Of a stretch of 26,843 nt of DNA, positions 1-19,397 are shown piece after piece. A program made the translations under genes and the position numbers. Position 1 is the first letter of the stretch. Every line of letters begins with the position of its first letter. The notes beneath the pieces were generated by a model, which saw only the letters and a list, made by a program, of their open reading frames with translations, made no database searches and had not been told where the DNA came from. Location of the stretch: positions 1 to 26,843 of IMG/VR virus record IMGVR_UViG_3300036719_005676, one strand, 5' to 3'. Source of the DNA: a virus.

Positions 1-463
1 TTGTCAGATTATCTACGAGGGTTGTGACACCGCTCGAAGCAGTGGTGGCTGTAGCGACACTAACGTTGGGGGTAGTTGTTCCGTTGACGACACTAATGGG
101 AGCTGTGCCAATGACGTTGCTAACGCTAGCGCCTGAAGTCGAAGAAATAGTGATATTGCCTGTTGCCGCACTCACCGAGATTCCGGTTCCTGCCGTCACA
201 CTCAACACGCCAGTGTTCGACACGGTGACGTTGCCTGTGCCGCCCGCAGGATTAACGCTGATGCCAGCAGCAGCGATGATTTTACTTACGGCGCCACCGC
301 CACCACCGGAGGCGCTAATAACGCCAGTAATATTATTAACGCTCAGTCCAGACCCTACAATAAACGGACCAGTGACGCCGTTAATATAGTTGGATTCTGG
401 GGAGTAAAAAGGATTGTTTGGAATCGGTTGGTTGGGGTTATTAGGACGGAGGGGTAACGCCAT
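1..463 (-). CDS. Tail fibre protein, C-terminal part cut by the left edge
   Basis: The frame opens at an ATG at 463 and stays open to the left edge, giving about 154 residues with no stop, so the 3' end lies outside the window. The N-terminus has the same anchor as the next three fibres: a PIPNNPFY motif near residue 13, then a GPFIVGSGLSV stretch and a Gly run near residue 57. The rest is low-complexity beta repeat rich in Gly, Val, Ser and Thr (GTAPISVVNG type), typical of trimeric phage fibre shafts. It is probably a tail fibre or collar component attached through the shared N-terminal anchor. The GGGTAAAA box ends 25 nt before the ATG, just after the terminator of the preceding fibre gene, so it should be its own transcription unit. 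No SD is visible. The distal receptor-binding part cannot be seen. Confidence 0.85.
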   Translation of the reverse strand, partial: MALPLRPNNPNQPIPNNPFYSPESNYINGVTGPFIVGSGLSVNNITGVISASGGGGGAVSKIIAAAGISVNPAGGTGNVTVSNTGVLSVTAGTGISVSAATGNITISSTSGASVSNVIGTAPISVVNGTTTPNVSVATATTASSGVTTLVDNLT

Positions 464-488
464 GGATAGCCAAACTTTCTATACCTGG

Positions 489-496
489 TTTTACCC
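489..496 (-). promoter_or_regulatory. GGGTAAAA box, candidate late promoter of the left-edge fibre
   Basis: Minus-strand GGGTAAAA, 25 nt before the ATG at 463 and about 14 nt beyond the terminator of the preceding gene. The extended form AACGGGTAAAACCAGGTAT (19 bases) is identical to the box near 15989. A partial copy, GGGTAAC, precedes it directly. A TATAGAAA element lies 5 nt downstream. Lying between a terminator and a start codon, it is best explained as a promoter. Confidence 0.65.
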
Positions 497-506
497 GTTA
501 CCCGCA

Positions 507-534
507 TACAAAAAGAGGGAGCCGAAGCTCCCCT
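507..534 (-). terminator. Rho-independent terminator after the 808-residue fibre
   Basis: On the minus strand, GGGAGC, loop TTCG, then GCTCCC form a perfect 6-bp stem (527-532 with 517-522) with a UUCG tetraloop. TCTTTTTG follows as the U tract. It lies just after the stop codon at 556 and before the next GGGTAAAA box. Confidence 0.9.
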
Positions 535-555
535 TTAGTTCTGTATTTAGAAAAC

Positions 556-2982
556 TCAACTCAACTTCGCCTTCAACTCGGCAACTTCAGCGGAGAGTTC
601 CTGAATGGCTTTGACAAGGACAGGAATCAGAGCGCCAGGGGCAACACCCATGTACTCGTTATCGGTATCCACCAGTCCAAGGTAAGAGGCGTCATGCTCA
701 GTTACCACTTCTTGCAGTTCCTGAGCCACGAAACCGGCAGCCTTCTCTTTGTTTTCCTTCCACTGATAGGTACGGGGCTGAATTTGATTTACAAAGTCCA
801 GACCAAGAGCCAGATCGGCAACTTCTTCCTTGAGGCGAACATCCGAAGCGGAAGTCCAGACAGCCGAGCCAGCGGAAGCATAAAGGAAGCAGCTAGCACC
901 GAACGCAAAGGTGACACCGCCGTTTGCAGTACCAAGGGTGCAAGAGTTACCGGCACCCAGAACAATCTGATTGTTTTGAGAAGTGGCGTTAAGCGCAGCA
1001 CCGCAACCAACAAAAACGTTAGCGCTGCCAGTGCTATTGCAGCCGGAGTTTGTTCCGACCATCACGTTGTTATTGGTGGTTGTCAGCGCAAGACCAGCGT
1101 TGACGCCAACCAAAACGTTGCAACCACCGCTCGTAAGGGCGTCGCCAGCTACGGCACCCACCATGGTGTTGGCTAAACCAGTTGTGATGCTGTTGCCTGT
1201 ACCATAACCGACGGCGGTATTTTGAGAACCTCCGTTTTGAAGTTGCAGGGCACCAGTTCCAAGGGCAGTATTGAAAAGTCCTGCGGTTTCTGTGCCCAGC
1301 GCACAACTTCCGACCGCAACGTTATAACATGAACTTGTAAGCGCAGAACCCGCTCCACCACCAACGAGAATATTTCCACAACCGCTGGTGATTACAGCGC
1401 CCGCGCCGATACCGACAGCAGTGTTGCCTTGACCGGTTTGACCGCCGCCACCGATAACTTGCAGGGCTTGTTTGCCAACGGCAAAGTTGAGAGCAACGCC
1501 AGGCTCGCCAAGACCGTACACAGTTCCAGCTGTCAGCGGCAACGCGGTCGGCACGGGAGCCCATGTCACACCTTCGGCACAAGCAGAGCAGGTGACCAGA
1601 GTCAGTCCGTTCGCGCCGACGGCCAAACGAGTGTAGGTATCGTTACCTGTGCCAACAACCAGATCTCCAGCAAGGTTGAAAGTTGCCGCAGAAACATATC
1701 CAGCAGCACCAGCAGCGGGAGTAACAGCGAGAGTAGTGGAGAGGCCGGAGAGAACGTCAGCGGTGGTCGCAAGCTGAACGGCACCGCAGGCCGAGGTCGA
1801 AGCGGCGTTGATGCCAATCGCGCCGGCACCACTGGTTACGAGGGCAGGAGTTGTGAAGACTGGAGCAGCACCGGACAGAGCGGTAATGCCACCGCCACCG
1901 CTACCGCCAGCAGCCCACTTGACACCCGTCGAGCAAGAAGAGTCGGCAGTCAGAACGTATCCGTCAGTACCAACGGGAACCACGTCGTAAGTCGTGGAAC
2001 CTGTAGCCGCCAGAACTTGACCCGAGGTGGTAAAGCAGCTGCGAGCGAGGTAAGTCTGAGAACCAGTGTTCGGAGTGAGAACAACGTTGGGATTGACACC
2101 AGCCTGAGCTTCGACAACAGTTGCCAGCTCGACGAGACCAGGGGTCGTAGTTGTGGCATAAGCTGCAGCCACGGGACCCACACGAAGAATCGACCAAACT
2201 CCGGAAGACACAAGAATATAGTCACCAACGATGACGCCAGTGAATGTAGGACCACCTGTCGGAGTGTAGGTTGTGCCAGAGGGCGAAGCGATGGTTACGA
2301 TCAAGTAGTAATCGTTGATTGCCGGAGTAGCAGCGGGAACAACAGCACCAGCGGTGAATCCAGCAAGGTTACCAGCAGTGGTAACACTTACAACCAAACC
2401 AGTTGTAACGTTCAGCGTGCCTGCGAGAATCAGCCCGTTTGCATTTTGAGACAGAGCGTTGATCTGATCCTGCAGATTTTTACCAGCAGCAGCAGTTAGT
2501 GCCTGGTTCGTCAGAGTGCTGGAAGTAGTGTTATTGAGAAGAGTTGCACCGTATTGAGAGGTCGTTGCCAGCTGAATGCCGATTGTCGGAGCACTTACCG
2601 ATCCCGAAATCAGCAGAGGCGAGTTCACAGAAACGCTCGTAACCGGACTTCCGGAGGAGGCGGAGGTGACTCGGCCAAAAGAATCAACAGAAATCGCAGC
2701 GAAGCTGTATGATCCGGCGGTGACACCAGAGTTGGCCAGTGCGATTGTGCCGGTCGAAGTGATTGTACCGCCGGTGAGACCAGATCCAGCAGTGATCGAA
2801 GTGACGGTACCCCCGCCGCCTCCGCCCCCTGTGGAGCTGATGACGCCACCCAAGCTGACGGATAGACCCGACCCAATAATCAGAGGCCCGGTCGGACCTT
2901 GAAGATAATAGGACAGAGTAGAGTAAAAAGGTCCGTTGGGAATGGGATCGTAGGGGTTGAAATTAACAGGGAGAGCCGACAT
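556..2982 (-). CDS. Tail fibre with YadA-like repeats and a peptidase S74 chaperone domain
   Basis: 808 residues. The N-terminal anchor (residues 1-60, PIPNGPFY and GPLIIGSGLSV) is shared with neighbouring fibres and ends in seven glycines. A phage-fibre repeat of the type ATTTTPGLVELAT lies near residue 275. About ten YadA-head-like repeats (NTAVGIGAG type) fill roughly residues 500-680. The last 96 residues are an intramolecular chaperone (peptidase S74) domain starting SDVRLK at Ser713. In that family this domain assists fibre trimerisation and cuts itself off at the Ser of the Ser-Asp pair, which would give a mature fibre of about 712 residues. The Ser and the Lys in SDVRLK are both present. 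About 13 cysteines are scattered through the repeats. Its own box lies upstream and a terminator follows. Likely role: distal or side tail fibre for host recognition. Confidence 0.92.
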   Translation of the reverse strand: MSALPVNFNPYDPIPNGPFYSTLSYYLQGPTGPLIIGSGLSVSLGGVISSTGGGGGGGTVTSITAGSGLTGGTITSTGTIALANSGVTAGSYSFAAISVDSFGRVTSASSGSPVTSVSVNSPLLISGSVSAPTIGIQLATTSQYGATLLNNTTSSTLTNQALTAAAGKNLQDQINALSQNANGLILAGTLNVTTGLVVSVTTAGNLAGFTAGAVVPAATPAINDYYLIVTIASPSGTTYTPTGGPTFTGVIVGDYILVSSGVWSILRVGPVAAAYATTTTPGLVELATVVEAQAGVNPNVVLTPNTGSQTYLARSCFTTSGQVLAATGSTTYDVVPVGTDGYVLTADSSCSTGVKWAAGGSGGGGITALSGAAPVFTTPALVTSGAGAIGINAASTSACGAVQLATTADVLSGLSTTLAVTPAAGAAGYVSAATFNLAGDLVVGTGNDTYTRLAVGANGLTLVTCSACAEGVTWAPVPTALPLTAGTVYGLGEPGVALNFAVGKQALQVIGGGGQTGQGNTAVGIGAGAVITSGCGNILVGGGAGSALTSSCYNVAVGSCALGTETAGLFNTALGTGALQLQNGGSQNTAVGYGTGNSITTGLANTMVGAVAGDALTSGGCNVLVGVNAGLALTTTNNNVMVGTNSGCNSTGSANVFVGCGAALNATSQNNQIVLGAGNSCTLGTANGGVTFAFGASCFLYASAGSAVWTSASDVRLKEEVADLALGLDFVNQIQPRTYQWKENKEKAAGFVAQELQEVVTEHDASYLGLVDTDNEYMGVAPGALIPVLVKAIQELSAEVAELKAKLS
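945..1490 (-). repeat. YadA-head-like coding repeats in the 808-residue fibre
   Basis: Around ten degenerate repeats with the pattern small-residue, N, T/V, x, V, G, x, x, A, G/L, as in CGNILVGGGAG and CYNVAVGSCAL. Related repeats form trimeric beta-roll heads in autotransporter adhesins. The same repeat is found in the giant fibre at the right end of the window. Borders are approximate. Confidence 0.75.
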
Positions 2983-3011
2983 AGTTACGACCAGAGCTTC
3001 AGCGTAATGAC

Positions 3012-3019
3012 TTTTACCC
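3012..3019 (-). promoter_or_regulatory. GGGTAAAA box, candidate late promoter of the 808-residue fibre
   Basis: Minus-strand GGGTAAAA lies 29 nt before the ATG at 2982 and 5 nt after the TAA of the 671-residue fibre. No SD precedes the ATG. Confidence 0.6.
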
Positions 3020-3024
3020 GTGGA

Positions 3025-5040
3025 TTATGGATTCTTGTACTTAATGATTGGCAACAGCGCCACGTTCACGGGGCGAGTCTCATTCGGTGTGGGAGCGAGA
3101 GTAGGTGAGTTATTGACTGTGAGTGCCGTTGTGCAGACGAGGGTCTGAGTGATGCCAGTGAAGTTGGCATTTACCGTGATACCCGTGGTCGCGCTCGAGA
3201 TTGCAATACCAGTGGTACAAGAGCTGGTATAACCGCTGCTGCTACCGATTTTGCCATCGCCATCGTACAGACTGTCGGTATCACCTACAACCTCAGAAGT
3301 GCACACGTTCCACTCGTGCTTGTGACCTGGATCGGTAATAGCATGACTATGCCCAGGATCGGACACTGTATGAACGTGGCCCGGATCCGTAATAGCGTGA
3401 ATGTGCCCAGGGTCAGTGACCGAGTGGTTGTGCTGTTTAAAAGCGGATCCCTGACAAGAACCGAATGCACGACCAGGATCTACGTTGGCAGGATTACCAC
3501 CAGAGGCATCCCAACCGCGAATGAACTGACCGCGCAGATCGGGAACTGCGTAAGCACCGGGAGAGCTACCGTAAGTGTATCCGATAACTTGGAAAAGCTC
3601 GTAATAATCGTCAGCGGGACTGTCGGAGTACGAAGAGCCATCGGCAACAAGCCAACCCACAGGAAGTTTGGCCGGATCATTACTCGAGAACCAAGCGATG
3701 CTACCAACAGGTACAGACTGGGGAGCAGTGGGAGTCTTCCACTTGACGCCCAAAGGCTGAGTGATATCAACCGTCAGGACCTGACCGTCAATACCTTTCG
3801 GGAGGATGCGAGGGTCAGCGGCGGAAAAACCAACGATCAGGTCGCCATTTGCTTGAATGATGTCCTCATGAATCGACTCATCCCAAGCCTGCTTCAGGGC
3901 ACGAGCCGTAGGCGCTTCCGTAACCGAGGTGCTTGTCAGAGTGTCATTCAGTTGAACCAGACCACGAGTCGTGGTGGTTGCCTGAAGGGTGCCAAGACCG
4001 GCAGGAGTAACAGCGCGAGTGGTGTCAGCCAGCAGTTGAGTTTCAGCAGCTGTGGCAAGCTCGACAAAACCTTTTTGAGTTGTCGAAGCAATCATGCCCG
4101 ACAGACCAAACGGAGTCACCGCAATGGTGTTGTCAGCCAGAGCCTGAGTCTCGACAACTGTGGCATAACGAACAATACCCGCTGTAGTCGTGGTGGCGTA
4201 AGGAGCACGGAAACCGGTGAAAAAGGGAACCCAAGAGGAACCAGTACTCAGGATTTGGTCACCGGGCACCAGATTGACAGCGACGCTGCTACCGGGAGGA
4301 GTGTAGGTTCCAGCAGTGGTAACGATGACAACTGCTCCAGCGTTAGTGGAGTCGGATGCTGGAAGATTGCTACCAACAGTGATTCCCGCACCAATACCAG
4401 CAGTGGTAGCAGTAACCATCTGCTGAGTGGAAGCATTAAACGTGCCAGCCAGAAACTGCAGGGCATTAGTGGCAGTGATGGCGTCAATCTGTTGTTGCAG
4501 AAGGTAACCTTGCTGCGCAGTCAGGGCGAGGTTAATCGAGGGAGTGCTCAGGTTATTCGACAGCTGAACCGCACCGGAGTTAGTGATGCTGGCCGAGGCG
4601 ATGGCAACTGTGATCGAAGGTGAGGACCCAGTAACTAAAATAGGATATTGACCTGTAATATTCTGGACGGGGGGAACGCCGTTCGAAGCGAGGGTGACGC
4701 GACCGTAAGCATCAACCGTGATTGCAGCGTAAGTATAAGTTCCGACCGTTAAACCGGGCACTGTGGCCAGCTGAATCTGTCCCGTTGTTGTGATGCCGAG
4801 CGCAGGATTGGTCTTCAGTCCCGGACCAGCAGTGACCGAGGTGACCGTGCCCAGGGAGGCAGGCGGAGTCGGGTCGATCGAGATTACGCCGGTGTTAAAA
4901 TCAACACTGATTCCGGTACCAAAAATCAGAGGACCCTGAGGCGTGTTGAACGTAAAGTTGTCAGGACCCTGCGGCCAGTAAAAAGGGTTGTTTGGAATCG
5001 GCAGATTAACAGTGTCGAAGTTAGGAGAAAAGGTTGCCAT
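3025..5040 (-). CDS. Tail fibre/collar protein with a His-rich metal-binding repeat
   Basis: 671 residues. The N-terminal anchor has PIPNNPFY near residue 14 and GPLIFGTGISV near 36. Residues 281-385 hold three phage-fibre repeats (TTTTAGIVRYAT, STTQKGFVELAT, TTTTRGLVQLND). A GDLIVG...GVKW module spans 399-434. Residues 443-512 match the phage tail collar domain (VPVGSIAWFS, then PVGWLVADG and YAVPDLRGQFIRGWD). Residues 537-576 are five HxH motifs spaced by TDPG. In T4 gp12 and gp37, HxH residues on a trimer axis bind metal ions, and the same is likely here. The protein is a paralogue of the next gene upstream, with which it is collinear over its full length. It is preceded by a GGGTAAAA box and has no SD. 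Likely a short tail fibre or receptor-binding protein. Confidence 0.92.
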   Translation of the reverse strand: MATFSPNFDTVNLPIPNNPFYWPQGPDNFTFNTPQGPLIFGTGISVDFNTGVISIDPTPPASLGTVTSVTAGPGLKTNPALGITTTGQIQLATVPGLTVGTYTYAAITVDAYGRVTLASNGVPPVQNITGQYPILVTGSSPSITVAIASASITNSGAVQLSNNLSTPSINLALTAQQGYLLQQQIDAITATNALQFLAGTFNASTQQMVTATTAGIGAGITVGSNLPASDSTNAGAVVIVTTAGTYTPPGSSVAVNLVPGDQILSTGSSWVPFFTGFRAPYATTTTAGIVRYATVVETQALADNTIAVTPFGLSGMIASTTQKGFVELATAAETQLLADTTRAVTPAGLGTLQATTTTRGLVQLNDTLTSTSVTEAPTARALKQAWDESIHEDIIQANGDLIVGFSAADPRILPKGIDGQVLTVDITQPLGVKWKTPTAPQSVPVGSIAWFSSNDPAKLPVGWLVADGSSYSDSPADDYYELFQVIGYTYGSSPGAYAVPDLRGQFIRGWDASGGNPANVDPGRAFGSCQGSAFKQHNHSVTDPGHIHAITDPGHVHTVSDPGHSHAITDPGHKHEWNVCTSEVVGDTDSLYDGDGKIGSSSGYTSSCTTGIAISSATTGITVNANFTGITQTLVCTTALTVNNSPTLAPTPNETRPVNVALLPIIKYKNP
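3313..3432 (-). repeat. 30-bp tandem repeat encoding TDPGHxH units
   Basis: Four 30-bp units encode TDPGHIHAI-like decapeptides, preceded by an HNH triplet, giving five HxH motifs in a row. The units differ at synonymous and variable positions, so this is an old, selected repeat and not a recent slippage product. Confidence 0.85.
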
Positions 5041-5075
5041 TTTTGCTGACGCTGGTGGGGACCAAGTTAAAAGGG

Positions 5076-5083
5076 TTTTACCC
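5076..5083 (-). promoter_or_regulatory. GGGTAAAA box, candidate late promoter of the 671-residue fibre
   Basis: Minus-strand GGGGTAAAACCC, 35 nt before the ATG at 5040 and starting 3 nt after the TGA of the preceding gene. The flanks could pair into a 4-bp hairpin with a 3-nt loop followed by TTTT. This is too weak to be a convincing terminator. Confidence 0.6.
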
Positions 5084-5087
5084 CGAA

Positions 5088-7106
5088 TCAGAAGTTTGCG
5101 TATTTGATCATCGGCAGAAGCGCACGGTTATTTGGACGCGACTCATCCGGAGAGGGAGCAGTCGGAGGAGCGTTATCAACTGTTAAACCGGTAGTGCAAG
5201 TTTGAACAGTGAGGCTGCTTTGTTGGCTAGATAGGGTGAAGTTAGTAACTCCAGGGTCGATAGAGATTCCGGTTTTTTGAGTGGTAGTTTGAGGTTTTCC
5301 AAAACTACTTCCGACCGAATCATACCAACTCGGAGTATTGCCAACGACTTCCGACACCGACCAATTATTTAAACAGTGGTAATGCCCGGGATCGGTTTTA
5401 CCGTGGACATGCCCAGGGTCAGTCTTCGCGTGATCGTGGGTGCAAAGCGGGAATGGCATGACGTGACCGGGGTCGGTAACACCGTGGTTATGTTGCTGAT
5501 AAGCATCACCTTGCCGAGATCCCCAGATGCGACCTGGGTCCAGAGCACGAGCGGTGCCGCCAGCGGCATCCCACCCACGAATAAATACACCGCGCAAGTC
5601 AGGGACTCGGAAGAATCCCGCCGGTTCGCTACCGGTGTTAAAGGTGGTACCAACAACGTCGTAAAGTTGGAAGTACGGTCCAGAGATGGACCCGTCGTAC
5701 ATCGAACCGTCACAGGGAACCCACAGAGCGGGAGCCACTGAAGCAAGGTACCAGGTGATCGAACCTACCGGCCAAGTCGTCTGAGAATCAGGAATATCCC
5801 AGTCGATGCCAAGAGGTTTTGTGTCATCGACAACGAGCAGAGACGCCTGGGTGCCAAGAGGAAGGATGGCAGGAGTTGCGATACTTTGCCCAACGATAAG
5901 GTCGCCTTGAGCAGTGATGGTTGCCGCATCAAGAGAAGAGTCAGAATATTTCTTCAGGGCGTTTGCGGTAGGCGCTGTGATCACCGAAGGATCGGCGATT
6001 GAGTCGGTCAGGCGAACGATACCCCGAGTGGTCGTTGTAGCGCAGACTTTGTCGAGGTTGCTCGAGGTGATTGCGCGAGTGGCGTCAGTGAAAGCGAGGG
6101 TCTCAGCGTCGGTAGCCAGCTCAACGAAACCGACTTGAGTGTCCGATGCGATCATTACCGCAAGCGAACCTGGAGTCACCGACTTATTCGGTTCCGTTAG
6201 AGCTTGGACTTCAGTACTGGTTGCCAGGATTGTCAGACCGGCAGCGCCGGACGAGGCGCTGGCGAGGCGAGTACCACACTCAAGAAACTGCCAAGTGCCT
6301 TCGACACAAACAATACGGTCGTTATTGACTGCGCTAACCGAAGAACCGCCAGGAACATTGTAAGTGGCATCGGCGCCCTGCAGAATGAAAAAGGCACCGT
6401 CGTACTTATCCAGAGGTGTGTAAGGAGGTGCAGGAACTGAAGAACCAACTACCAACCCTCCTAGGGCGATTGCCTCCAGGGTCAACTGTGTGATGTTGCC
6501 GGTTGTTGTGCTGACGATGCCAGCCAAGTATTGCCCTGCCAGCTGGCCTCCAATGTACTGCATCTGGAAGCCAAGGTTGTATCCCTGGAGAGCAGTTAGG
6601 GCTCTGGTTCCGTCGTTGCTTGACAGACTGTCAATAAGTTGAACAGCGCCCTTAGCGCTAACAGTTGCCCCAGAGATGCCAATATTTCGAATATTCCCTG
6701 TCCCACTTACGAGAATCGGTGCAGTTCCGATTAACGTGGTGAGTGGGGTTGGCCCGTTAGCAGCAAGAGTGAGGTGTCCGTTGCCGTTTACGGAAATGAT
6801 GGGATAGGTGTAAGACCCAGGAGTGAGAGTTGGGATGGAATCAAGATCGACAGATCCGGTAGTTACGATACCGCCAGGAGGAGCCGAGATCAGCCCCGGC
6901 CCGACTGTGATTTGATAAACCGTGCCATTATTGGGAGGATTCGGAGCAACAGTAATCTGACCTGTCCTGTAGTCAACGAAAAAGTTGCTACCGAACGTCA
7001 GAGGGGTCCCTGTAACAGTGTAAAGAGTATACCGGTCTGCTTCCGGATTGTTGAACGGATTGTTAGGAATCCGTTCTTGAGGGTTAAAGGGCGGAATAAC
7101 AGCCAT
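5088..7106 (-). CDS. Tail fibre/collar protein, paralogue of the 671-residue fibre
   Basis: 672 residues with the same order of modules as the next gene downstream: anchor (IPNNPFNNP, then GTPLTFGSNFFVDY), phage-fibre repeats (ASDTQVGFVELAT, ATTTTRGIVRLTD), a GDLIVG...GIDW module, a tail collar domain (WPVGSITWYL, then FRVPDLRGVFIRGWD), a His-rich segment and a similar C-terminus ending in PDESRPNNRALLPMIKYANF. The His-rich part keeps the TDPGHxH units but carries an insertion with PFPLCTHDH, so spacing is less regular than in the paralogue. A tandem gene duplication followed by divergence is the simplest origin. It is probably a second short-fibre or receptor-binding subunit. A purine-rich GAGAGAAG before the ATG is at best a weak SD. 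Confidence 0.92.
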   Translation of the reverse strand: MAVIPPFNPQERIPNNPFNNPEADRYTLYTVTGTPLTFGSNFFVDYRTGQITVAPNPPNNGTVYQITVGPGLISAPPGGIVTTGSVDLDSIPTLTPGSYTYPIISVNGNGHLTLAANGPTPLTTLIGTAPILVSGTGNIRNIGISGATVSAKGAVQLIDSLSSNDGTRALTALQGYNLGFQMQYIGGQLAGQYLAGIVSTTTGNITQLTLEAIALGGLVVGSSVPAPPYTPLDKYDGAFFILQGADATYNVPGGSSVSAVNNDRIVCVEGTWQFLECGTRLASASSGAAGLTILATSTEVQALTEPNKSVTPGSLAVMIASDTQVGFVELATDAETLAFTDATRAITSSNLDKVCATTTTRGIVRLTDSIADPSVITAPTANALKKYSDSSLDAATITAQGDLIVGQSIATPAILPLGTQASLLVVDDTKPLGIDWDIPDSQTTWPVGSITWYLASVAPALWVPCDGSMYDGSISGPYFQLYDVVGTTFNTGSEPAGFFRVPDLRGVFIRGWDAAGGTARALDPGRIWGSRQGDAYQQHNHGVTDPGHVMPFPLCTHDHAKTDPGHVHGKTDPGHYHCLNNWSVSEVVGNTPSWYDSVGSSFGKPQTTTQKTGISIDPGVTNFTLSSQQSSLTVQTCTTGLTVDNAPPTAPSPDESRPNNRALLPMIKYANF
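5376..5492 (-). repeat. Degenerate TDPGHxH coding repeat
   Basis: HNH, three TDPGH units and an inserted THDH stretch. It is homologous to the 30-bp repeat at 3313-3432 but has fewer regular copies and one disrupted unit (TDPGHVMPFPLC). Confidence 0.7.
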
Positions 7107-7140
7107 TAGTGCTTCTCTCGGTCTGGGTCCTGTTAAGTGC

Positions 7141-7148
7141 TTTTACCC
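7141..7148 (-). promoter_or_regulatory. GGGTAAAA box, candidate late promoter of the 672-residue fibre
   Basis: Minus-strand CCGGGTAAAAGC begins directly after the TAA of the 166-residue gene and ends 34 nt before the ATG at 7106. Confidence 0.6.
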
Positions 7149-7150
7149 GG

Positions 7151-7651
7151 TTACTGAACGGGGGTGCCAGAGACTTGAGTCCACTGGCGATTGCTATTTG
7201 CGTCTTCGTAAAGCACATACATGAGACCAGTGCCCGAATCCCACCAAAGAGTTCCATTTGGATGCAGACCAATTGTGGGCGGGGTGTCAGAGACGATGGT
7301 GTTTGCGTACCGGTAGGGCATGCAGTCGAGCCATTGCGAACCATCCCAGACTTTGAGAACGGGGCCGGGACGGTCGGGAGTGGGAGGAGTGGTATCCAGC
7401 CACAGCTCTCCCAGCGAATTCCCTAATTGCCCCGGAGCGCCTGTGGCACCTGCGTTAGGTGCCGATATGCCGACTGTACAGGGACCAACCTTAAAGAGGG
7501 TGTTTCCGGTGTCATCGGCAAAGAAGAATCCGGGTTGAGCAGCATTAGTATTTACTGAGGGTTGTCCAGGTAAAAGTTTCGCAGCGTCCGGGCGCTTATT
7601 GGGAAGAATCGACCGCAGAAGTTGGATTGGTGTAACTCTTGTTGTTGCCAT
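7151..7651 (-). CDS. Small virion-type protein sharing a module with the 1643-residue protein
   Basis: 166 residues, no recognised enzyme motif. The first 85 residues align by eye with the start of the 1643-residue protein: KRPDAAKLLPG, then NTNAAQPGFFFADD, KVGPCTVG and LGELWLDT, against KRPTGANLEAG, NTNSNDPGIFFEVN, KAGPTAYL and LGELWVDT. The second half carries two Trp-rich segments (KVWDGSQWLD and NGTLWWDSGTG). The shared head suggests both proteins dock on the same virion partner, with this one a short cap or adaptor and its neighbour a long fibre. That role is inference. It has its own GGGTAAAA box 49 nt upstream and no SD. Confidence 0.85.
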   Translation of the reverse strand: MATTRVTPIQLLRSILPNKRPDAAKLLPGQPSVNTNAAQPGFFFADDTGNTLFKVGPCTVGISAPNAGATGAPGQLGNSLGELWLDTTPPTPDRPGPVLKVWDGSQWLDCMPYRYANTIVSDTPPTIGLHPNGTLWWDSGTGLMYVLYEDANSNRQWTQVSGTPVQ

Positions 7652-7700
7652 TTTGACTAGATGTCGATACGACTCGGTAGATCCGAGAAGGTTTGAATGG

Positions 7701-7708
7701 TTTTACCC
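7701..7708 (-). promoter_or_regulatory. GGGTAAAA box, candidate late promoter of the 166-residue gene
   Basis: Minus-strand CCGGGTAAAACC directly follows the TGA of the 1643-residue gene and ends 49 nt before the ATG at 7651, the longest spacing in the window. Confidence 0.58.
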
Positions 7709-7710
7709 GG

Positions 7711-10700
7711 TCAGGGTTGAATGAGGCCAGGGTCAATCTGAATGATTTGATTCTGGTCATTGACGATAATGCCAGGACCGTCTTGAAGCGTGGTATTTGT
7801 AAGCCCAGGGGGGAGGGGACAGGTGAGGTACTCGTCGGAAGCGATAACACGGATGTTGCAAGTGGTTCCGGAGAGTGGAGGCACAGCAAACGTAATCTCG
7901 AGCACCTTGGTAATCGAGTTGAGGCCAACCGTGTAAGCAAGACCAGCGAGGGGGTCGCCAGTTTGAGCAACTGGGATTTGCATGACACCTCCGAGGCTAA
8001 CGAACATGTTCTGTGCATTGACCTTGGTTGGATCCAGAGGAACTCCGTCGATGACGAGAGGGAATGTTGTTTGCGTATTATTGAATAAATCTGAGATGTC
8101 GTCGACAGATGAGACGAATACGGTGGAAATTCCGACGTTCCGATAACGGGATCCAGAAAGAATTCCACGCACATCCAACGTTGTGCCTTCTTGCGGAGCA
8201 CCAGCGATAAACGACAAAGTGCTCGCCCCGGAGGAGTAATTGACTGTGTAGGCGGCAGAGTTTTGATTGTTTCCGGAGGGATTTTGCTCCGTGCCGCCGA
8301 GGAACACAAACGAGTTAAGGTTGCTCAGAGTCGATTCACTCGGTGACACAGAGAAGGAAGTTTGACCGCCGTCAAATGCGGGAGAAAGAGAGAACGGAAT
8401 AACTTCCACGGTCTCTTCTTCGTCTTCGGTTGTAACGATACGAATATCGCAACTTGTGCCTTCCGGGGGCGGTTCCGAGAAAACGATTTGAGGGAAGGGC
8501 AATCCGGCTTGGGTGCCTTGAATGACGTAAGCCTCTTGGGGTTTTTGCACCACACCGCCAAGGAATACGAAAACACCGTAAGAAGAAAGTTGTCCGGTAG
8601 GAATAGGATATCCTCCACGCTCGAGGGGGAACGCAAAGATCGAACCATCAAACTGACCAGAAATGTCGTCCGCAGAGAATACCAGAACCGGATTTGGTTG
8701 CGGTGTGGGTTCCGGCGTGGTATAAACCTGCCGGTTTGCGGCGTTGGAGAGGGGGGACTCGGTAAGATAATATTGTCCGGTAAGGGCTTCGCGAATAGGC
8801 CCAAGGAAAACCAACTGACCTGAGTCATCAGCGCCCATCACTGTGAGGCGACCACCCCAAGACGTTGTGCTCAAATAGTCATAGGTAAGTTTCTTCGGAA
8901 TCTGATTAACTTGGTATTTTGGAAGACCTCGCGAGTAATCGAAGTAACCCACATATTGCCAAGTGTGAGTGTTTGCGATTATTGTTGAGGGATTGTTAAA
9001 CTCAACCGGCCAAGCGGTTGTTACGTTGGCATATCCGTTAATTGGGGACAGTGGGATCGAAGAATTCAAAAGAGTCCGGTCACCCGAATACTGAGGAGTC
9101 AAGTAAGGTGCAATACTTGAACGTGGATAACCCATCAGCTCGAAGAATCGGAACATTGTTGCTTTTGTAACCGCCCAGTTTGGGTCATAGACCGAAGGCT
9201 CGGGATATCCGCTTGAAACACACACTTTTACTGTGGTTCCCTTGGGCCAGCTTGCGGGCAAATTTCCCGAAGCATACCCAGGATAGTAGTTACGAATTGC
9301 TTGAACCACGTTGGAATTAACGGAGATTACGCGAACGTACTCGAGAGCGCCCAACGAAGGATTTGTTAGTTCCAGAATGCTTACTCCTTCTTTTGGCAGA
9401 ACAATCTGTTGAACTGATAGGAGTTCTAGCTGGAGTACGGCAGGACGACCAAAGGTTGGATTCGCAGCGTAAGGGGAGCTCATTACCACTGCACTTTGTG
9501 TAATAACCGAAGGTGAAACCAAAACAGTTGAATCTACACTTAAAGGCAAACGTTTGAAGATGATTCCCAAGTCCTGTGAGCTGTCATCCTCATCAATTTG
9601 ATACTGAGGGGCATACTCGACATAAGGGACAACTGCGCCACGCATGTAAGACAGAGCCGCACCCTCGTTTGTCGTAAGTTGTTCGTAGTAAGAATAATAG
9701 GGGTCGGGAACTGTTCCTTGCCAAGAACTTGTAACAAGTTCGTTTTGCTCCAAGACGCTTGAGATCACGAAGGGCGAATCGGCCTTGTCTGGTGAGACCT
9801 TCGTAGGACCGTTTAGGGGGTTAAACGTGGTGCTGTAGTAAAGGGCATTCCAAAGATTGTTCTCAACAGCGTAGTAGTTTTTATTAGCGTATGTCAGATA
9901 GAAACCCTGGGGAGAGTCAAAGGGAACTAAAGTGCTATCTAGATCGCTCGGGTTTGACGGCACCGACTGAACCCATGGAGTGCTCGCGTCCGTGAGCGAA
10001 GCATAGACCACGTAGTTGGTTGCCTGGTTGGCGTCAGAAACCTTATAGTTGAAGTTTGCGGAGTATGAATATTGTTCTGTTTCAACGGTATCCACAGTAA
10101 ATACCTGGGAGATTCCCCCATATTGACCCGGGTCAAACTGAAAGTTTCGTTTGATGGTATTCGAAAGCGTTTGCCCAGTTTGGTTAAGGCGTAGTACCGA
10201 TCCGAGTTGAGGAGCCTGAGATGTTGGATTTGTAGAACGGACATAGAACCCGTACGACTTTTCGGAGGGAGTCCGAGGATCAACGAATCGACGAATGTAG
10301 GGAATGTCGAGTGTTGTTGAGGCGCCGTTCGGAATGGTTGAATCTGAGACGCGAACACGAAGAATGGCTCCACCCTCGGCGTAAGGGTTTTGCAGAATGT
10401 CACCGCTTAAAATACATGTTGAAGTCCCGTCCGTAACAAAGAATGCACGATATGTGCAAACCGCATCGGCAACAAAAATAGCGGATCCCGGCTTTAGAGA
10501 GAACGGTAAGATTGAAGCTGGGTCAAAAGGACGACGGAGATAGATCAACTGAACACTCGGATCGCCCGGATCTGGACCCACAAAAACAACCTTACTACCT
10601 AAATAGAGAATGCGTTTTTGCTCGTCGGAAACAACCGAATTTTCCAAAAGTTCAAGGGGACGAACAATTCCCTCTTGCAAGAATCCCTTATTAACCAAAT

Positions 10701-12642
10701 TAGCGCCACCAAGTGTTCCGATACCGGCAAAGCCATCCGATTGGAAAGCAACAGAGCCAAAGTTAGTGGTCGCATTCGTTAGCGACAAGATAGCACCATA
10801 TCGGGCCCAACAAGCGATTGCTGCACCGATTGTGTAAGTGGATTGCGCTTGCATGTAGGAGTTGGCGCCACTAATTCGGAAGCCAAAATGACGGAAGTCA
10901 TTGTCGGGATCTGCGATACCAATACTCTTCGGAGATCCTCCGTCCGGAGTGTAGGTTAGTGTGGTGTAGTAATAACGAATATTTGGAATCGCCGCGTCAT
11001 TAAGGTTCTGAAGCTGAGCGTTGGTTGGGACAGAAGTTGGAGAGGGTAACCCGAGTTGTTGTTGAGTAAATTGAGTGAGTTGAGCCCAATTTTGATCCTG
11101 AGTGGAGTAAATCTGGTATGCTACAGGGTCTTTCTGCAACACAACGGCTGTAGAAGCATTGACAATAACCGATTTGAATCCGCTTACAACGTCTCCCTCA
11201 TAGTCTCCATTTGCCATTCCGTAGTCGGAACGATGATTCACCGTGTTTTGGTAAGGCGATGAATTATCTGTGCTGTTTGATGATACGTTGTTTGGGTAAT
11301 CGGAGGAAGCTGGGGCAACGATCTCGTACTCAGGTGCGGAAACCAGATTCGGATTGACTTGACCGCCAAAGAATGTGGGGAATGCTTTTTGAACTTTGGT
11401 ATAAAAAGTATTGAGTTGCTCAAGGGAAGAGTTTTTGAGAACGCTTAGACGGTGGTGGGAATAGGGAGAAAGCTCGTAAGACTCTCCATCTGGGGGAATG
11501 AAGTAAGGATAAATGTTACTTACTTGAAATTTTGCGTCAGCGATGTCTGAAGGAGAGAAATAAGATGAAGGAAGGTCTGAAGATATGATCGGTGCTTGGG
11601 AAGAGCTCCCCCAAGATCCCGTTGAGAGAACAAACTGATAAGCGGTTAAGGGATAAGCGTAGTAGGCGCCATTGCTGAAAGACGCTCCAGCTTGATCCGT
11701 TGGAAAACCGTACTCCACTTGAACAAAGTCATTAAACCCGAGTCCGTGAGGGCGATCAGTCTGAAATATGGCCCAGTTAGTATCTTCTTGGGATGACACT
11801 CGATCAACGATTCGAGTTTCAATTTTATCTAAGCCGGTGAAGTTGGAAACGTAAGTATTCCCCGACCACTTAAACACGGAGGATCTTGGTTGATTAGAAT
11901 AGACGGGACCGTTAGGCTCCTGCTGATAGTTTGAAGGGAAGGAGGGGTGAGTGTATTTGGGGACGTAAGTCGGGTGAATTTCACATTTCTTGAGGTCGAG
12001 TCCGATGATGGAAACACCTCTGGGGAGAATCAGTCCTCCAAACACCTCGGGGTTGAACTCAGCAAGTTTTGCCTGGGTGACTTCCTGGTAAGGGTCGTTG
12101 AAATTAACGGAGAAGTTGGTCAGGGTTGCACCAGGGGCATTGACTACACAATGGCGCCCAGGTGCCAACATGATAAGGTAGCGATTATTTCCGAGAGAAA
12201 GCCCGCTAAGAGAGTCTTGAATGATATATTTTGTAACTTCGATGATGGCCCGGTTAATGGTGACGAATGGCACTGTTTGCCCGTCGTTGGACAAAGAGTC
12301 AGTGGCATTCTCATATTCAGGGGCAACAAACACCGTCAGTCCATTTGTTCCGCCGAGGAACGGTGCTGCAACCTTTTGCCATTGCTGGCTCGATGTACCA
12401 ATGTTTAGGCCCTTCGTGTCAGTATCAACCCACAGCTCTCCGAGAGCAGGTGTCTGTGTGGGTGCCTGAGGGAGATAGGCGGTCGGACCCGCTTTTACTA
12501 CGCTGCCGTCATTAACTTCGAAGAAAATCCCAGGGTCATTCGAGTTAGTATTGAGACCGATCTCTCCTGCTTCAAGGTTTGCTCCTGTGGGCCTTTTGCC
12601 AAGAAGGCTGGAACGTTTGAAGATAATTTTTACGGCAGACAT
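7711..12642 (-). CDS. Very large virion structural protein (1643 residues), tail-fibre-like
   Basis: The N-terminal module (KRSSLLGKRPTGANL, LGELWVDT) is shared with the 166-residue protein downstream. Residues from about 95 (GGTNGLTVFVAPEYENATDS) to about 250 look like the start of a beta-helix or pectate-lyase-like fold (PFVTINRAI, LAPGRHCV, LPRGVSIIGLDL). This pattern is known from large structural proteins of marine T4-like cyanophages. The middle is long and without recognised motifs. The C-terminal 319 residues hold three repeats of about 100 residues, starting near 1325, 1416 and 1514, each with an F(V)xLGGxxQ(N/K/I)P core and a GTxxDIR or GTTCNIR end. No catalytic residues can be assigned. 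It is probably a long fibre or baseplate-associated adhesin. It is preceded by the single imperfect box (GGGTAAGA, 46 nt from the ATG) and lacks an SD. Confidence 0.88.
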   Translation of the reverse strand: MSAVKIIFKRSSLLGKRPTGANLEAGEIGLNTNSNDPGIFFEVNDGSVVKAGPTAYLPQAPTQTPALGELWVDTDTKGLNIGTSSQQWQKVAAPFLGGTNGLTVFVAPEYENATDSLSNDGQTVPFVTINRAIIEVTKYIIQDSLSGLSLGNNRYLIMLAPGRHCVVNAPGATLTNFSVNFNDPYQEVTQAKLAEFNPEVFGGLILPRGVSIIGLDLKKCEIHPTYVPKYTHPSFPSNYQQEPNGPVYSNQPRSSVFKWSGNTYVSNFTGLDKIETRIVDRVSSQEDTNWAIFQTDRPHGLGFNDFVQVEYGFPTDQAGASFSNGAYYAYPLTAYQFVLSTGSWGSSSQAPIISSDLPSSYFSPSDIADAKFQVSNIYPYFIPPDGESYELSPYSHHRLSVLKNSSLEQLNTFYTKVQKAFPTFFGGQVNPNLVSAPEYEIVAPASSDYPNNVSSNSTDNSSPYQNTVNHRSDYGMANGDYEGDVVSGFKSVIVNASTAVVLQKDPVAYQIYSTQDQNWAQLTQFTQQQLGLPSPTSVPTNAQLQNLNDAAIPNIRYYYTTLTYTPDGGSPKSIGIADPDNDFRHFGFRISGANSYMQAQSTYTIGAAIACWARYGAILSLTNATTNFGSVAFQSDGFAGIGTLGGANLVNKGFLQEGIVRPLELLENSVVSDEQKRILYLGSKVVFVGPDPGDPSVQLIYLRRPFDPASILPFSLKPGSAIFVADAVCTYRAFFVTDGTSTCILSGDILQNPYAEGGAILRVRVSDSTIPNGASTTLDIPYIRRFVDPRTPSEKSYGFYVRSTNPTSQAPQLGSVLRLNQTGQTLSNTIKRNFQFDPGQYGGISQVFTVDTVETEQYSYSANFNYKVSDANQATNYVVYASLTDASTPWVQSVPSNPSDLDSTLVPFDSPQGFYLTYANKNYYAVENNLWNALYYSTTFNPLNGPTKVSPDKADSPFVISSVLEQNELVTSSWQGTVPDPYYSYYEQLTTNEGAALSYMRGAVVPYVEYAPQYQIDEDDSSQDLGIIFKRLPLSVDSTVLVSPSVITQSAVVMSSPYAANPTFGRPAVLQLELLSVQQIVLPKEGVSILELTNPSLGALEYVRVISVNSNVVQAIRNYYPGYASGNLPASWPKGTTVKVCVSSGYPEPSVYDPNWAVTKATMFRFFELMGYPRSSIAPYLTPQYSGDRTLLNSSIPLSPINGYANVTTAWPVEFNNPSTIIANTHTWQYVGYFDYSRGLPKYQVNQIPKKLTYDYLSTTSWGGRLTVMGADDSGQLVFLGPIREALTGQYYLTESPLSNAANRQVYTTPEPTPQPNPVLVFSADDISGQFDGSIFAFPLERGGYPIPTGQLSSYGVFVFLGGVVQKPQEAYVIQGTQAGLPFPQIVFSEPPPEGTSCDIRIVTTEDEEETVEVIPFSLSPAFDGGQTSFSVSPSESTLSNLNSFVFLGGTEQNPSGNNQNSAAYTVNYSSGASTLSFIAGAPQEGTTLDVRGILSGSRYRNVGISTVFVSSVDDISDLFNNTQTTFPLVIDGVPLDPTKVNAQNMFVSLGGVMQIPVAQTGDPLAGLAYTVGLNSITKVLEITFAVPPLSGTTCNIRVIASDEYLTCPLPPGLTNTTLQDGPGIIVNDQNQIIQIDPGLIQP
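7834..8670 (-). repeat. Three C-terminal domain repeats in the 1643-residue protein
   Basis: Coding repeats at about 8670-8398, 8397-8104 and 8103-7834. Each follows the plan DDIS..F, a hydrophobic FPL strand, FLGG..Q.P, an AY.V strand, then a conserved Pro-rich turn with EGT and (C/L)(D/N)(I/V)R. The middle copy has LDVR in place of CDIR and lacks the DDIS opening. Borders are approximate. Confidence 0.75.
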
Positions 12643-12688
12643 GAGCTAAAGAGCGAGTAGTTCAGCGTGTAAAGACACGTTGCTACAC

Positions 12689-12696
12689 TCTTACCC
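12689..12696 (-). promoter_or_regulatory. Imperfect GGGTAAAA box before the 1643-residue gene
   Basis: Minus-strand GGGTAAGA, one mismatch from the consensus, 46 nt before the ATG at 12642. Its TAA is also the stop codon of the upstream gene. It is accepted mainly because of its position, and it may be weaker than the others. Confidence 0.4.
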
Positions 12697-13218
12697 TTGA
12701 CCTTCAAGGTAAGCCTTCATTGTCTCCTCAAGGGCGGCAATTTGAGCGCCGATATCTTCCATCTCAGAGTAAGACGACTCTTGCTCGTAAGTACGATTAT
12801 AGTCTTCCATTTGTTTTTGTCCGGCATTACCACCAGGAGCAGCAACTGCCATGCGAGCGTCTAAACGCTCTTTTTCTTTAATCATGTCTTGCATCTCTTG
12901 CATGCAGCGATGAAACTCTTGAAAGTTTCCACGCATACGGCAGATGCGGAGTTTGTCTTGTTGCTTGTCAATTTGCAGGTTTAGGGAATGCGCTTGCTTT
13001 TCCAGGTCCTCAAACTTGTCACCCTGCATTACGTTGGCGGGCAGCAACTCGTTGAAAGCATCACGGAGCTTTGAGGTGTGCTCTGGCTCCATTACGGTGC
13101 CTTTGGCATAGTCCGTCGGAGGATGCGAAAAGTCGTAGTCAACGATTTGATGACCGTGCTCTTTGTAAATTAAATAGGCAGCTTCAATCGCCTTGTGATC
13201 GATGGAATCTTTCCGCAT
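12691..13218 (-). CDS. Unknown coiled-coil protein
   Basis: 175 residues, not recognised. The central part (residues about 67-120) is rich in Lys, Glu, Gln and Leu with heptad-like spacing (DKFEDLEKQAHSLNLQIDKQ, then MQEMQDMIKEKERLDARM). The last 25 residues form another predicted helix (EMEDIGAQIAALEETMKAY), so the protein is probably helical and self-associating. There is no signal peptide or membrane segment. It lies between a cluster of small unknown genes and the giant structural gene and has its own GGGTAAAA box 28 nt before the ATG, which suggests a late virion or assembly role such as scaffold or chaperone. That is inference only. Confidence 0.8.
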   Translation of the reverse strand: MRKDSIDHKAIEAAYLIYKEHGHQIVDYDFSHPPTDYAKGTVMEPEHTSKLRDAFNELLPANVMQGDKFEDLEKQAHSLNLQIDKQQDKLRICRMRGNFQEFHRCMQEMQDMIKEKERLDARMAVAAPGGNAGQKQMEDYNRTYEQESSYSEMEDIGAQIAALEETMKAYLEGQG

Positions 13219-13246
13219 GACGCAGACGGAGACATTATATACAGGG

Positions 13247-13254
13247 TTTTACCC
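13247..13254 (-). promoter_or_regulatory. GGGTAAAA box, candidate late promoter of the coiled-coil gene
   Basis: Minus-strand AGGGTAAAACCCT, 28 nt before the ATG at 13218 and 3 nt after the upstream TGA. TATATAAT follows 5 nt downstream, similar to the element seen at the 489 and 15989 boxes. The box is self-complementary over 5 bp. Confidence 0.62.
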
Positions 13255-13257
13255 TCG

Positions 13258-13587
13258 TCACCATTTTGTACGATTAGCCCAGTACGCCGCACTCATTTTC
13301 CCCTTGGAAATATTTTTTGCGTGCCTGGCTTGGAAGCGCTTACGACGATTAGCATGTGCTTCGGATTCACCCTCTTTCTTTGGTGACCCCTTTACACCTC
13401 GCTGTCCAAACCGAATAATTTTTTCCTTCCCGTTAGCACACGCTTTCACGACATGGGATTTCCCCGTCAAGGAGTCACCCACAGCCTGTGCTTTTGGTTT
13501 GTTGCAAGGCATTTTGTCCTTGTCAATTCTTTCCGCATAAGCAAAAAAGAACTCATCAAGGATGTCATCCGGAAAAGATCCAAACAT
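13258..13587 (-). CDS. Small basic phage protein ending AYWANRTKW
   Basis: 109 residues. The C-terminal 70 residues match a small basic protein type I recall as widespread in phage structural regions: IIRFGQRGVKGSPKKEGES, then RRKRFQARHAKNISKGKMSA and an AYWANRTKW end. Its function is not established as far as I know. The basic charge and conserved RxxFxARH segment suggest contact with nucleic acid or an acidic partner. The residues before about 40 are less conserved in character. The ATG at 13587 starts 1 nt after the stop of a 44-residue ORF, so the two are probably translated together. No clear SD. Confidence 0.85.
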   Translation of the reverse strand: MFGSFPDDILDEFFFAYAERIDKDKMPCNKPKAQAVGDSLTGKSHVVKACANGKEKIIRFGQRGVKGSPKKEGESEAHANRRKRFQARHAKNISKGKMSAAYWANRTKW

Positions 13588-13588
13588 T

Positions 13589-13723
13589 TTACTTAGGGCG
13601 ATTTTGCTTTAAAAGTACTTTGCTCTGTTGCAGCTGTTCCTTAAGGATTTGCAATCCCTCCTTGTCAGACTCACGGGTGGGAGTCCGCTCAGAGTTCCAG
13701 CGATGGTGAAGTTCAGGATTCAT
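13589..13723 (-). CDS. 44-residue small protein in the coupled gene cluster
   Basis: This ORF starts at ATG 13723 and ends at TAA 13589-13591. It is supported by its junctions: the ATG overlaps the stop of the upstream gene as ATGA, a strong GGAGGAG SD lies about 4 nt before it, and the next gene begins 1 nt after its stop. The peptide begins MNPELHHRWNSERT, continues with a Lys/Glu/Gln/Leu helix and ends in a basic tail. It has no recognised family. It fills what would otherwise be an unexplained 132-base gap in a tightly packed cluster. Confidence 0.75.
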   Translation of the reverse strand: MNPELHHRWNSERTPTRESDKEGLQILKEQLQQSKVLLKQNRPK

Positions 13724-14292
13724 GTTTCTCCTCCGAATCGTAAGTAGTCTGCAACGCTAGCGATACCGACCCCGGCATTGGCAATTTTGGTTGCCACCCA
13801 GGGCTCAAAGTTATCATCGGGGTACATCATCCCGAGCATAATATCAATCTTCTCTCGCATCACTCGAAGTTGCGTAATAACCATGCGAGCATTTGGCTCG
13901 TCGGAATGAAACGCATCATGGAAATCTTCGGTTTCTGCATAGTTAGGTGCAGCAGCCATTGCCAGATGTCCATCTTTGGCGTTAGCTTTCTTGATCTCTT
14001 CCATACGGGGCATGCGAATCTTCTGCTCACCCATTTCAGGATTCTTTTGATCGCCGCCGCCCGGAATCGGTTCCTTCGGAAGATAATTCGGAGTCATTTC
14101 AGCGGTGGCAATGTCGCCTTCACCGTGTTCCGCATCTTTCTTTACAGGAACACAATTTGGGACTTTGCGCCCATTCTTGTTCTTCATTCCCACAGCTTGG
14201 TAGCCTTTCCAACAGGGGTCATCTTTCATCTTTTCGATGAAGTCCTCTGACCAACCAAGCCCTTTCAATCTATCAAAATCATAGTCAATCAT
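13720..14292 (-). CDS. Unknown protein with a DDPCWKGY...KVPNCVP motif
   Basis: 190 residues from ATG 14292. This start is preferred over GTG 14304 because it forms an ATGA overlap with the upstream stop and has GGAG 6 nt before it. Residues about 24-50 read DDPCWKGYQAVGMKNKNG and then RKVPNCVPV, a motif I recognise from many phage proteins near head and portal genes, with no assigned function. The middle is polar and probably disordered (Pro, Gly, Glu, Lys). The C-terminus (FEPWVATKIANAGVGIASVA then DYLRFGG) is a helical segment also common in such proteins. It may be a head-assembly or capsid-associated accessory protein, which is inference from family resemblance and location. Its 3' end overlaps the 44-residue gene. 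Confidence 0.85.
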   Translation of the reverse strand: MIDYDFDRLKGLGWSEDFIEKMKDDPCWKGYQAVGMKNKNGRKVPNCVPVKKDAEHGEGDIATAEMTPNYLPKEPIPGGGDQKNPEMGEQKIRMPRMEEIKKANAKDGHLAMAAAPNYAETEDFHDAFHSDEPNARMVITQLRVMREKIDIMLGMMYPDDNFEPWVATKIANAGVGIASVADYLRFGGET

Positions 14293-14609
14293 CGGTGTCT
14301 CCACTCACGTAGTGATGAAAGTTCGTCACGAATATCATCTAGTCGGCGATCAATTGAACTGTGCCAGGTTTCTTCTCCTCGAATATGCATCATTAACTCT
14401 TCTTTCGTCACATACTTTTCCGGAAGAGTGAGGCGAACATCCATCAAGGTTTTGTCCAGGCTTTCAACCTTTTCAGTCAGGCCCCGCATTACAGCGTTAC
14501 CTGAGTTCTGAATCTTCTCAAACTTTTTGGAATTTCGATCAAGAACCCACCCGAGGCCAGAGATAATGGTGGCAAAGGATGCGACTATGCCAAGAATGTC
14601 TAACCCCAT
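14289..14609 (-). CDS. Small membrane-anchored coiled-coil protein
   Basis: 106 residues from ATG 14609. An upstream in-frame start at 14684 lies inside the preceding gene. ATG 14609 sits 2 nt after that gene's stop and has GGAG 5 nt upstream. Residues 2-23 (GLDILGIVASFATIISGLGW) are a single hydrophobic segment. A Lys/Glu-rich region and a C-terminal helix (SSIDRRLDDIRDELSSLRE) with heptad pattern follow. Phage proteins of this shape are common and uncharacterised. A membrane-linked role in lysis or in virion entry is possible, but one membrane segment with a long coiled coil is not a typical holin. Its stop overlaps the next start as ATGA. Confidence 0.82.
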   Translation of the reverse strand: MGLDILGIVASFATIISGLGWVLDRNSKKFEKIQNSGNAVMRGLTEKVESLDKTLMDVRLTLPEKYVTKEELMMHIRGEETWHSSIDRRLDDIRDELSSLREWRHR

Positions 14610-14611
14610 GG

Positions 14612-15325: not shown

Positions 15326-15327
15326 GG

Positions 15328-15963: not shown

Positions 15964-15988
15964 AACCACGAAGAACTTATATACCTGG

Positions 15989-15996
15989 TTTTACCC
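15989..15996 (-). promoter_or_regulatory. GGGTAAAA box, candidate late promoter of the six-gene cluster
   Basis: Minus-strand AACGGGTAAAACCAGGTAT is identical over 19 bases to the box near 489, followed by ATAAGTT. The box is 25 nt from the ATG at 15963, the same spacing as at 489, and 5 nt after the upstream TAA. Confidence 0.65.
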
Positions 15997-16001
15997 GTTT
16001 G

Positions 16002-16349: not shown

Positions 16350-16358
16350 GTTGGTTAT

Positions 16359-19283: not shown

Positions 19284-19309
19284 TGGAGGGCTGACTCAAC
19301 TACAGGTAG

Positions 19310-19317
19310 TTTTACCC
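19310..19317 (-). promoter_or_regulatory. GGGTAAAA box, candidate late promoter of phoH
   Basis: Minus-strand CCGGGTAAAACTACC, 26 nt before the phoH ATG at 19283. The 54 bases between the stop at 19372 and this box hold only the end of a doubtful 23-codon ORF. Confidence 0.62.
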
Positions 19318-19325
19318 GGTGCCAC

Positions 19326-19397
19326 CTAAATGGTCCACCAGGCATCTCTTTCTAGCAACCACTGAATGTGCTCAGTGCCAGCGTTCAGTGTAGTCAT
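19326..19397 (-). CDS. Doubtful 23-residue ORF overlapping the 63-residue gene
   Basis: ATG 19397 to TAG 19326, in another frame over the end of the 63-residue gene. The peptide MTTLNAGTEHIQWLLERDAW then WTI looks like a short amphipathic helix and not like random translation. No clear SD exists and no family is recognised. It could be a real micro-protein, or the true C-terminus of the upstream gene if a frameshift occurs. Low confidence. Confidence 0.25.
   Translation of the reverse strand: MTTLNAGTEHIQWLLERDAWWTI

Follow-up and report, generated by a model that had tools for sequence, protein, structure and literature searches.

It is a long-standing question how cyanophages keep pace with changes in the surfaces of their host cells. 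Four consecutive fibre genes, F1-F4, lie at the left end of a 26,843-base viral sequence (hereafter the window, which is the whole stretch of DNA analysed and the entire virus record, a linear fragment). Do they encode alternative receptor-binding fibres for a common place on the tail, separate appendages, or parts of a branched apparatus?

The nearest isolate by terminase is Synechococcus phage S-CBWM1 (Aokuangvirus; 56% identity). The genes for a 1643-aa and a 166-aa protein beside the array also have homologues in S-CBWM1 (38% and 44%), adjacent to each other. Because of this kinship, the host of the window virus is probably a cyanobacterium. No relative was found among the host genome contigs searched, and DNA searches of described phages gave no match for window 1-8000 (distant mode) or 8000-26843 (near mode).

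Four consecutive fibres share an N-terminal plug

The genes and their domains are as follows.

2-463, minus strand: F1, partial fibre, first 154 aa; anchor 263-463; the remainder lies beyond the left contig end
556-2982, minus strand: F2, fibre, 808 aa; anchor 2779-2982; S74 chaperone domain 694-846
3025-5040, minus strand: F3, fibre, 671 aa; anchor 4819-5040; Collar 3520-3705; five HxH motifs 3316-3432
5088-7106, minus strand: F4, fibre, 672 aa; anchor 6894-7106; Collar 5580-5765; four HxH motifs 5376-5492

Consistent with the original prediction of four consecutive fibres with a common N-terminal anchor, the N-termini are homologous in all six pairs. Specifically, pairwise alignment of residues 1-70, compared with 500 shuffles per pair, gave z of 8.0, 8.7, 12.5, 12.6, 12.9 and 21.9. 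Twelve comparisons of these N-termini with the 166-aa protein, the 1643-aa protein and a 998-aa fibre fragment gave z of -0.9 to 1.9. Two shared opening motifs had also been proposed; the reading frames and the homology stand, but the second motif fits F4 poorly (GTPLTFGSNFFV). The first, IPN.PF, is invariant across 14 aligned anchors, although at least three anchors outside that alignment deviate from it: L003 p4 has IPNSTF, the first G006 fibre has IPNGPI, and the divergent 379-aa gene of G003 departs as well.

The likeness extends past the anchor. Identity between F2 and F3 is 42% over 315 aligned columns, and between F3 and F4 it is 45% over 671 columns (F3 residues 15-670), so the shared part comprises a plug and a shaft. 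Judged from the alignment, F3 and F4 are paralogues over their full length, with the same Collar and HxH type of tip.

Searches of Pfam, PHROGs, PDB and described phages gave no convincing match for the anchor. In tblastn searches of described phages, neither F2 residues 1-311 (E up to 0.1) nor residues 1-75 (E up to 10) gave a match. A profile search of PDB returned 10 chains at E<=1 (best 0.0031), among them leucine-rich repeat, antibody and glycosylasparaginase chains, and these were judged to be chance matches. A monomer model of F3 has a mean pLDDT of 39 and VIA-align Z of at most 2.8, mainly to T4 fibre repeats. A model of the 166-aa protein has a pLDDT of 67 and gave no Foldseek match at E<=0.001. 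Both models are too weak to carry evidential weight.

Two types of tip are visible in the window

The distal domains agree with those predicted: S74 in F2, Collar and HxH in F3 and F4, and an F1 end that lies out of view. Pfam places S74 at F2 residues 713-763 (48.8 bits against a cut-off of 22), a predicted self-cleaving chaperone domain. Collar is placed at F3 residues 446-507 and F4 residues 448-509, and the HxH motifs number five in F3, spaced every 9 residues, and four in F4. By these features, the F3 and F4 tips are of the T4 gp37 and A-1(L) long-fibre type, with predicted metal binding.

A match with E 3.2e-18, seen for F3 only, links the F3 tip (residues 418-645) to gp34, which is the long tail fibre of cyanophage A-1(L) (PDB 8kec). 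The collar and HxH tip aligns to gp34 residues 134-357, which is mainly the arm (156-379) and not the anchoring shoulder (1-155), and the F3 anchor lies outside the match. The gp34 arm is reported to bind Anabaena cells (available text of PMC10966104).

The claim that a shared anchor carries differing distal parts thus holds for F2 against F3 and F4, but needs correction in two respects: the likeness exceeds the anchor, and because F3 and F4 are alike throughout, there are two tip types among the three visible fibres, not three. The repertoire visible in the window is therefore small.

Arrays in related viruses

Related loci were collected with three queries, namely F3, the anchor and the 1643-aa protein. 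L003 and L004 share 20,615 bases without a difference and were counted once; G001 and G002 were likewise counted as one virus. A fibre search that returned the query's own virus and one 38-residue match (L089) added nothing, and the L089 match was discarded. Arrays are present in four distinct viruses, the window and three others with 4 to 6 anchored fibres. The numbers of anchored fibres are as follows.

Window: 4, array cut by the contig end
G001 (= G002): 6
G003: 5, plus one divergent 379-aa gene
G006: 5, the first one weak (E 1.4e-4)
G004 and G005: 1 each, both at contig ends

The array directly follows the 1643- and 166-aa homologues in the window, G001, G003, G004 and G006, and the order F4-F3-F2 is retained in G001. 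Ten further records, of which G014 (12.6 kb) and G015 (23.0 kb) are fragments, were searched with a wider anchor profile. A single clear anchored fibre of full length (603 aa, L095) is present in G012, along with weaker pieces, G011 has weak short matches only, and the profile found no anchored fibre in eight of the ten, including S-CBWM1, G014 and G015. In the entire S-CBWM1 genome, no PIPN-anchored fibre was found (E up to 0.5; wider profile up to 0.01), and the array position is occupied by other genes.

In a 13-row tree of the 1643-aa protein, G000, G001, G004, G006 and G012 form one clade. G003 falls outside it, so the array label needs two changes, which fits either two acquisitions or an old array with several losses.

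The plug is kept while the tip changes

Three of the 23 anchored fibres are incomplete; without them, 20 complete fibres and 190 pairs remain. Likeness was called at z >5, with the first 75 residues taken as the N-terminus and the last 150 as the tip. N-termini are alike in 157 of 190 pairs, compared with 15 of 190 for tips (one tip pair is borderline, and its call varies between shuffle runs). All 15 tip-alike pairs also have N-termini alike. For pairs between genomes only, the counts are 123/152 and 11/152.

The tips of the 23 fibres recognised by Pfam are Collar (8), S74 (3) and GH18 (1). The GH18 domain occurs in the L003 counterpart of F4 (L003:6284-9940), at residues 910-1188 behind a collar tip (E 9e-28), and F4 itself stops short of the matching region. 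The GH18 domain contains DIDYE at residue 969, which we take to be the catalytic motif. For one G006 fibre, in a 790-aa frame (L097), the S74 tip resembles the F2 tip (z 29.8), but the plug groups with that of a Collar-tipped G006 fibre (99/98), which fits either a tip change or plug homogenisation.

The comparison with related phages that had been proposed for gain and loss therefore bears fruit: arrays vary, and sequence likeness supports gain, loss and re-tipping of cassettes. The locus offers a natural series from which these changes can be read: 0, 4, 5 or 6 fibres stand beside the same two tail genes, and one kind of plug bears tips of collar, S74, GH18 or other types.

A candidate late promoter precedes each of F1-F4

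An octamer, GGGTAAAA, stands upstream of each of F1-F4 and of the 166-aa gene.

489-496, minus strand: GGGTAAAA, 33 nt upstream of the F1 start
3012-3019, minus strand: GGGTAAAA, 37 nt upstream of the F2 start
5076-5083, minus strand: GGGTAAAA, 43 nt upstream of the F3 start
7141-7148, minus strand: GGGTAAAA, 42 nt upstream of the F4 start
7701-7708, minus strand: GGGTAAAA, 57 nt upstream of the 166-aa gene
13247-13254, 15989-15996, 16373-16380, 19310-19317, 21836-21843 and 23776-23783, minus strand: GGGTAAAA beyond the array

All 11 occurrences in the window are on the coding strand, compared with 1.03 expected, and none of 100 shuffles reaches 11. Ten of the 11 lie within 130 nt upstream of an ORF start. 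Among the anchored fibres of all viruses, 21 of 23 have the octamer 33-44 nt upstream and two are without it.

In S-CBWM1 (about 134 of 139 kb covered), the octamer occurs 32 times on the main gene strand and once on the opposite strand. For two lists of 24 genes each, hand-picked from the annotation, it lies within 110 nt upstream of 12 in the late-type list (capsid, portal, protease, sheath, tape measure and others) and of 2 in the list of early or metabolic genes. One of the latter two is the NMNAT gene, and NMNAT-like proteins are reported in the S-CBWM1 virion (available text of PMC10665884). Two S-CBWM1 proteins are annotated as sigma factors. A 50-kb stretch of S-TIM5 has five octamers against about two expected.

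The octamer is probably a late promoter, as judged from its placement. It stands ahead of genes beyond the fibre array in the window, and of genes in the relatives and S-CBWM1, as a candidate late promoter of the whole group, which has a cultured member in S-CBWM1. Since only half of the listed late-type genes of S-CBWM1 have it, it is not universal. As a probable late promoter, it would make each fibre gene an expression cassette. The proposal of an expressed repertoire gains from this, because a promoter-like sequence ahead of each of F1-F4 means that all four may be expressed. Neither GGGTAAAA as a phage promoter nor a paper on this array was found in the literature covered, outside which the original S-CBWM1 paper lies.

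A terminator-like hairpin with a T-run lies between F2 and F1 (516-533, minus strand; fold z -3.35), and a similar hairpin lies between their counterparts p3 and p4 in L003 (fold z -3.03). Terminator-like sites in the window are not enriched as a class (14 against 14.1 expected).

The neighbouring tail genes

Three further genes of the window are listed here.

7151-7651, minus strand: 166-aa protein whose N-terminal module differs from the fibre anchor; possible adaptor
7711-12642, minus strand: 1643-aa tail/baseplate protein; the S-CBWM1 homologue is annotated "putative baseplate wedge protein"
23846-26842, minus strand: F5, fibre with its N-terminus cut by the right contig end, outside the F1-F4 array

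The 166-aa and 1643-aa proteins have a common N-terminal module (z 12.1), unrelated to the F1-F4 anchor. The same module heads a longer gene in G008, G009, G010, G011 and G013, so a separate short gene is not universal. The 1643-aa protein has a sub-threshold Pfam match to Mtd_N. By eye, its end (window 7711-7782, minus strand; DGPGIIVNDQNQIIQIDPGLIQP) looks like the second half of a fibre anchor.

The window ends give no in-frame join, which ruled out a circular contig; F1 and F5 are thus two separate genes. Many short repeats, rich in Gly/Asn and containing Cys, give F5 a YadA-like look by eye. Its end is 33% identical over 191 residues to the end of a 433-aa L003 fibre, and by this likeness tips pass between fibre sets. 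The likely F5 counterpart in G002 has 1512 aa and an N-terminus of another kind.

A proposed receptor-binding repertoire on a common docking module

On balance, we favour a reading in which F1-F4 form a tandem array in a cyanophage-type myovirus: the fibres would be expressed late, would bind receptors and would together make up a multi-receptor repertoire that relies on one docking module. Sequence comparison establishes plug and shaft homology, tip difference, GGGTAAAA at each gene, gain, loss and re-tipping, and, among the viruses with arrays, a constant place beside two tail genes. Each fibre gene would be a cassette of promoter-like octamer, plug of about 60 residues, related shaft and exchangeable tip. 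The plug would dock fibre trimers onto the tail near the 1643- and 166-aa products, and the tips would bind different surface receptors: F3 and F4 by a T4 gp37-like, metal-bearing arm, and F2 by a tip matured through its own S74 chaperone. The set may thereby broaden or hedge host recognition. Fibre sets with conserved N-termini are already known; the plug here is without an assigned relative, and the locus points to a putative, uncharacterised docking module.

Alternatively, the array positions may be occupied by old paralogues, each dedicated to a separate site on the virion (long, short, neck or sheath fibre), a reading that we consider possible but doubtful. In A-1(L), long, short and neck fibres are indeed distinct, with one type each of long and short tail fibre (available text of PMC10966104), and the conserved F4-F3-F2 order in G001 is in line with dedicated places. 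Anchor trees were built with 21 and then 22 rows, the 379-aa G003 gene being left out. In these trees, F4/p1, F3/p2 and F2/p3 pair by position across G000, G001 and G004, and the G000 and G001 anchors show no clustering by genome, needing as many changes as they have rows (4 and 6). However, support for the F2/p3 and F3/p2 pairing is modest, F3/p2 is not resolved in the 22-row, 75-residue tree, and only 2 to 3 of 18-19 branches are starred as well supported. The G003 and G006 anchors partly cluster by genome, and the grouping of two differently tipped G006 plugs would be the natural outcome of plug homogenisation for a single site. As judged from such branches, the anchor trees fit one shared site as well as dedicated sites. 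The variation in array size and membership (none, 1, 4, 5 or 6) would be odd if the sites were dedicated and essential.

It is unlikely that the shared N-terminus is a trimer-starting cap or a functionless remnant of duplication rather than a docking module. Duplication alone accounts for the likeness of F3 and F4, which are paralogues throughout, and in orthologues another part can be better conserved than the first 60 residues (for F3, 86% for residues 281-440 compared with 62%). Nevertheless, N-termini stay alike where tips do not, and IPN.PF is kept in all 14 aligned anchors despite the deviants outside them.

A branched complex in the style of CBA120 or RaK2, with one anchoring fibre onto which the others dock, is quite improbable. 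Conserved N-termini with variable distal parts are described for the fibre sets of CBA120, RaK2 and phiKp24 (available text of PMC10253068 and PMC9700779), and in Alcyoneusvirus neighbouring genes encode receptor-binding proteins with related N-termini, as here (PMC10253068). As far as those texts go, Alcyoneusvirus (RaK2, phiK64-1), Ackermannviridae (CBA120) and phiKp24 resemble F1-F4 in having several receptor-binding proteins with conserved N-terminal modules, but their N-terminal domains are T4 gp10-like or CBA120-like, and a long organiser fibre is part of the set. In contrast, the anchor in the window is short, and F2-F4 have one common N-terminal layout without a longer organiser-type docking part; F1 starts alike but is cut. 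Sequence searches of Pfam, PHROGs and PDB found no gp10-like or D1 domain in the window fibres. The suggestion of a branched apparatus is thus not borne out among F2-F4, although an organiser may lie elsewhere.

Fusion of fibre copies from several viruses in one contig, conceivable for repetitive genes in a metagenome, is very improbable, since the order recurs in separate contigs (L003/L004), related arrays stand in G003 and G006, and the neighbouring genes are syntenic.

A second class of plug

Of 15 records, 12 contain exactly two copies of the N-terminal module of the 166- and 1643-aa proteins, which represents a second plug class. The exceptions are G003 (a third weak match), G005 (a fragment, none) and G012 (11). 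The 11 comprise two base genes, an adjoining 1169-aa gene and a run of eight at C1:43325-53661 (also L095:11740-20126), in which seven frames measure 389-433 aa and the eighth 125 aa. This run indicates that array growth is independent of any single plug. PIPN-plug arrays in the window group thus stand against seven or eight fibres of the other class in G012, and we tentatively extend the repertoire reading: the two-gene base might take whole cassettes, with the plug class switchable by lineage and fibres competing at assembly. If so, one burst would yield virions with mixed receptor sets.

S-CBWM1 resembles the window in its terminase, the 1643- and 166-aa homologues and the octamer, and differs in having other genes in place of PIPN-anchored fibres. 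Rio2, APH and ChoK kinases are reported in its virion (available text of PMC10665884). As a separate observation, a KGK.CG..CI motif recurs near the N-terminus of otherwise dissimilar proteins, including the S-CBWM1 RIO-like kinase gp113. It was absent from all window ORFs by regular expression. It is possibly a packaging tag. The proteins with the motif, gp113 among them, are as follows.

L005:11780-13342
L005:15465-16325
L066:2-1447
L078:8528-9766
L085:1252-2736
L085:8424-9785
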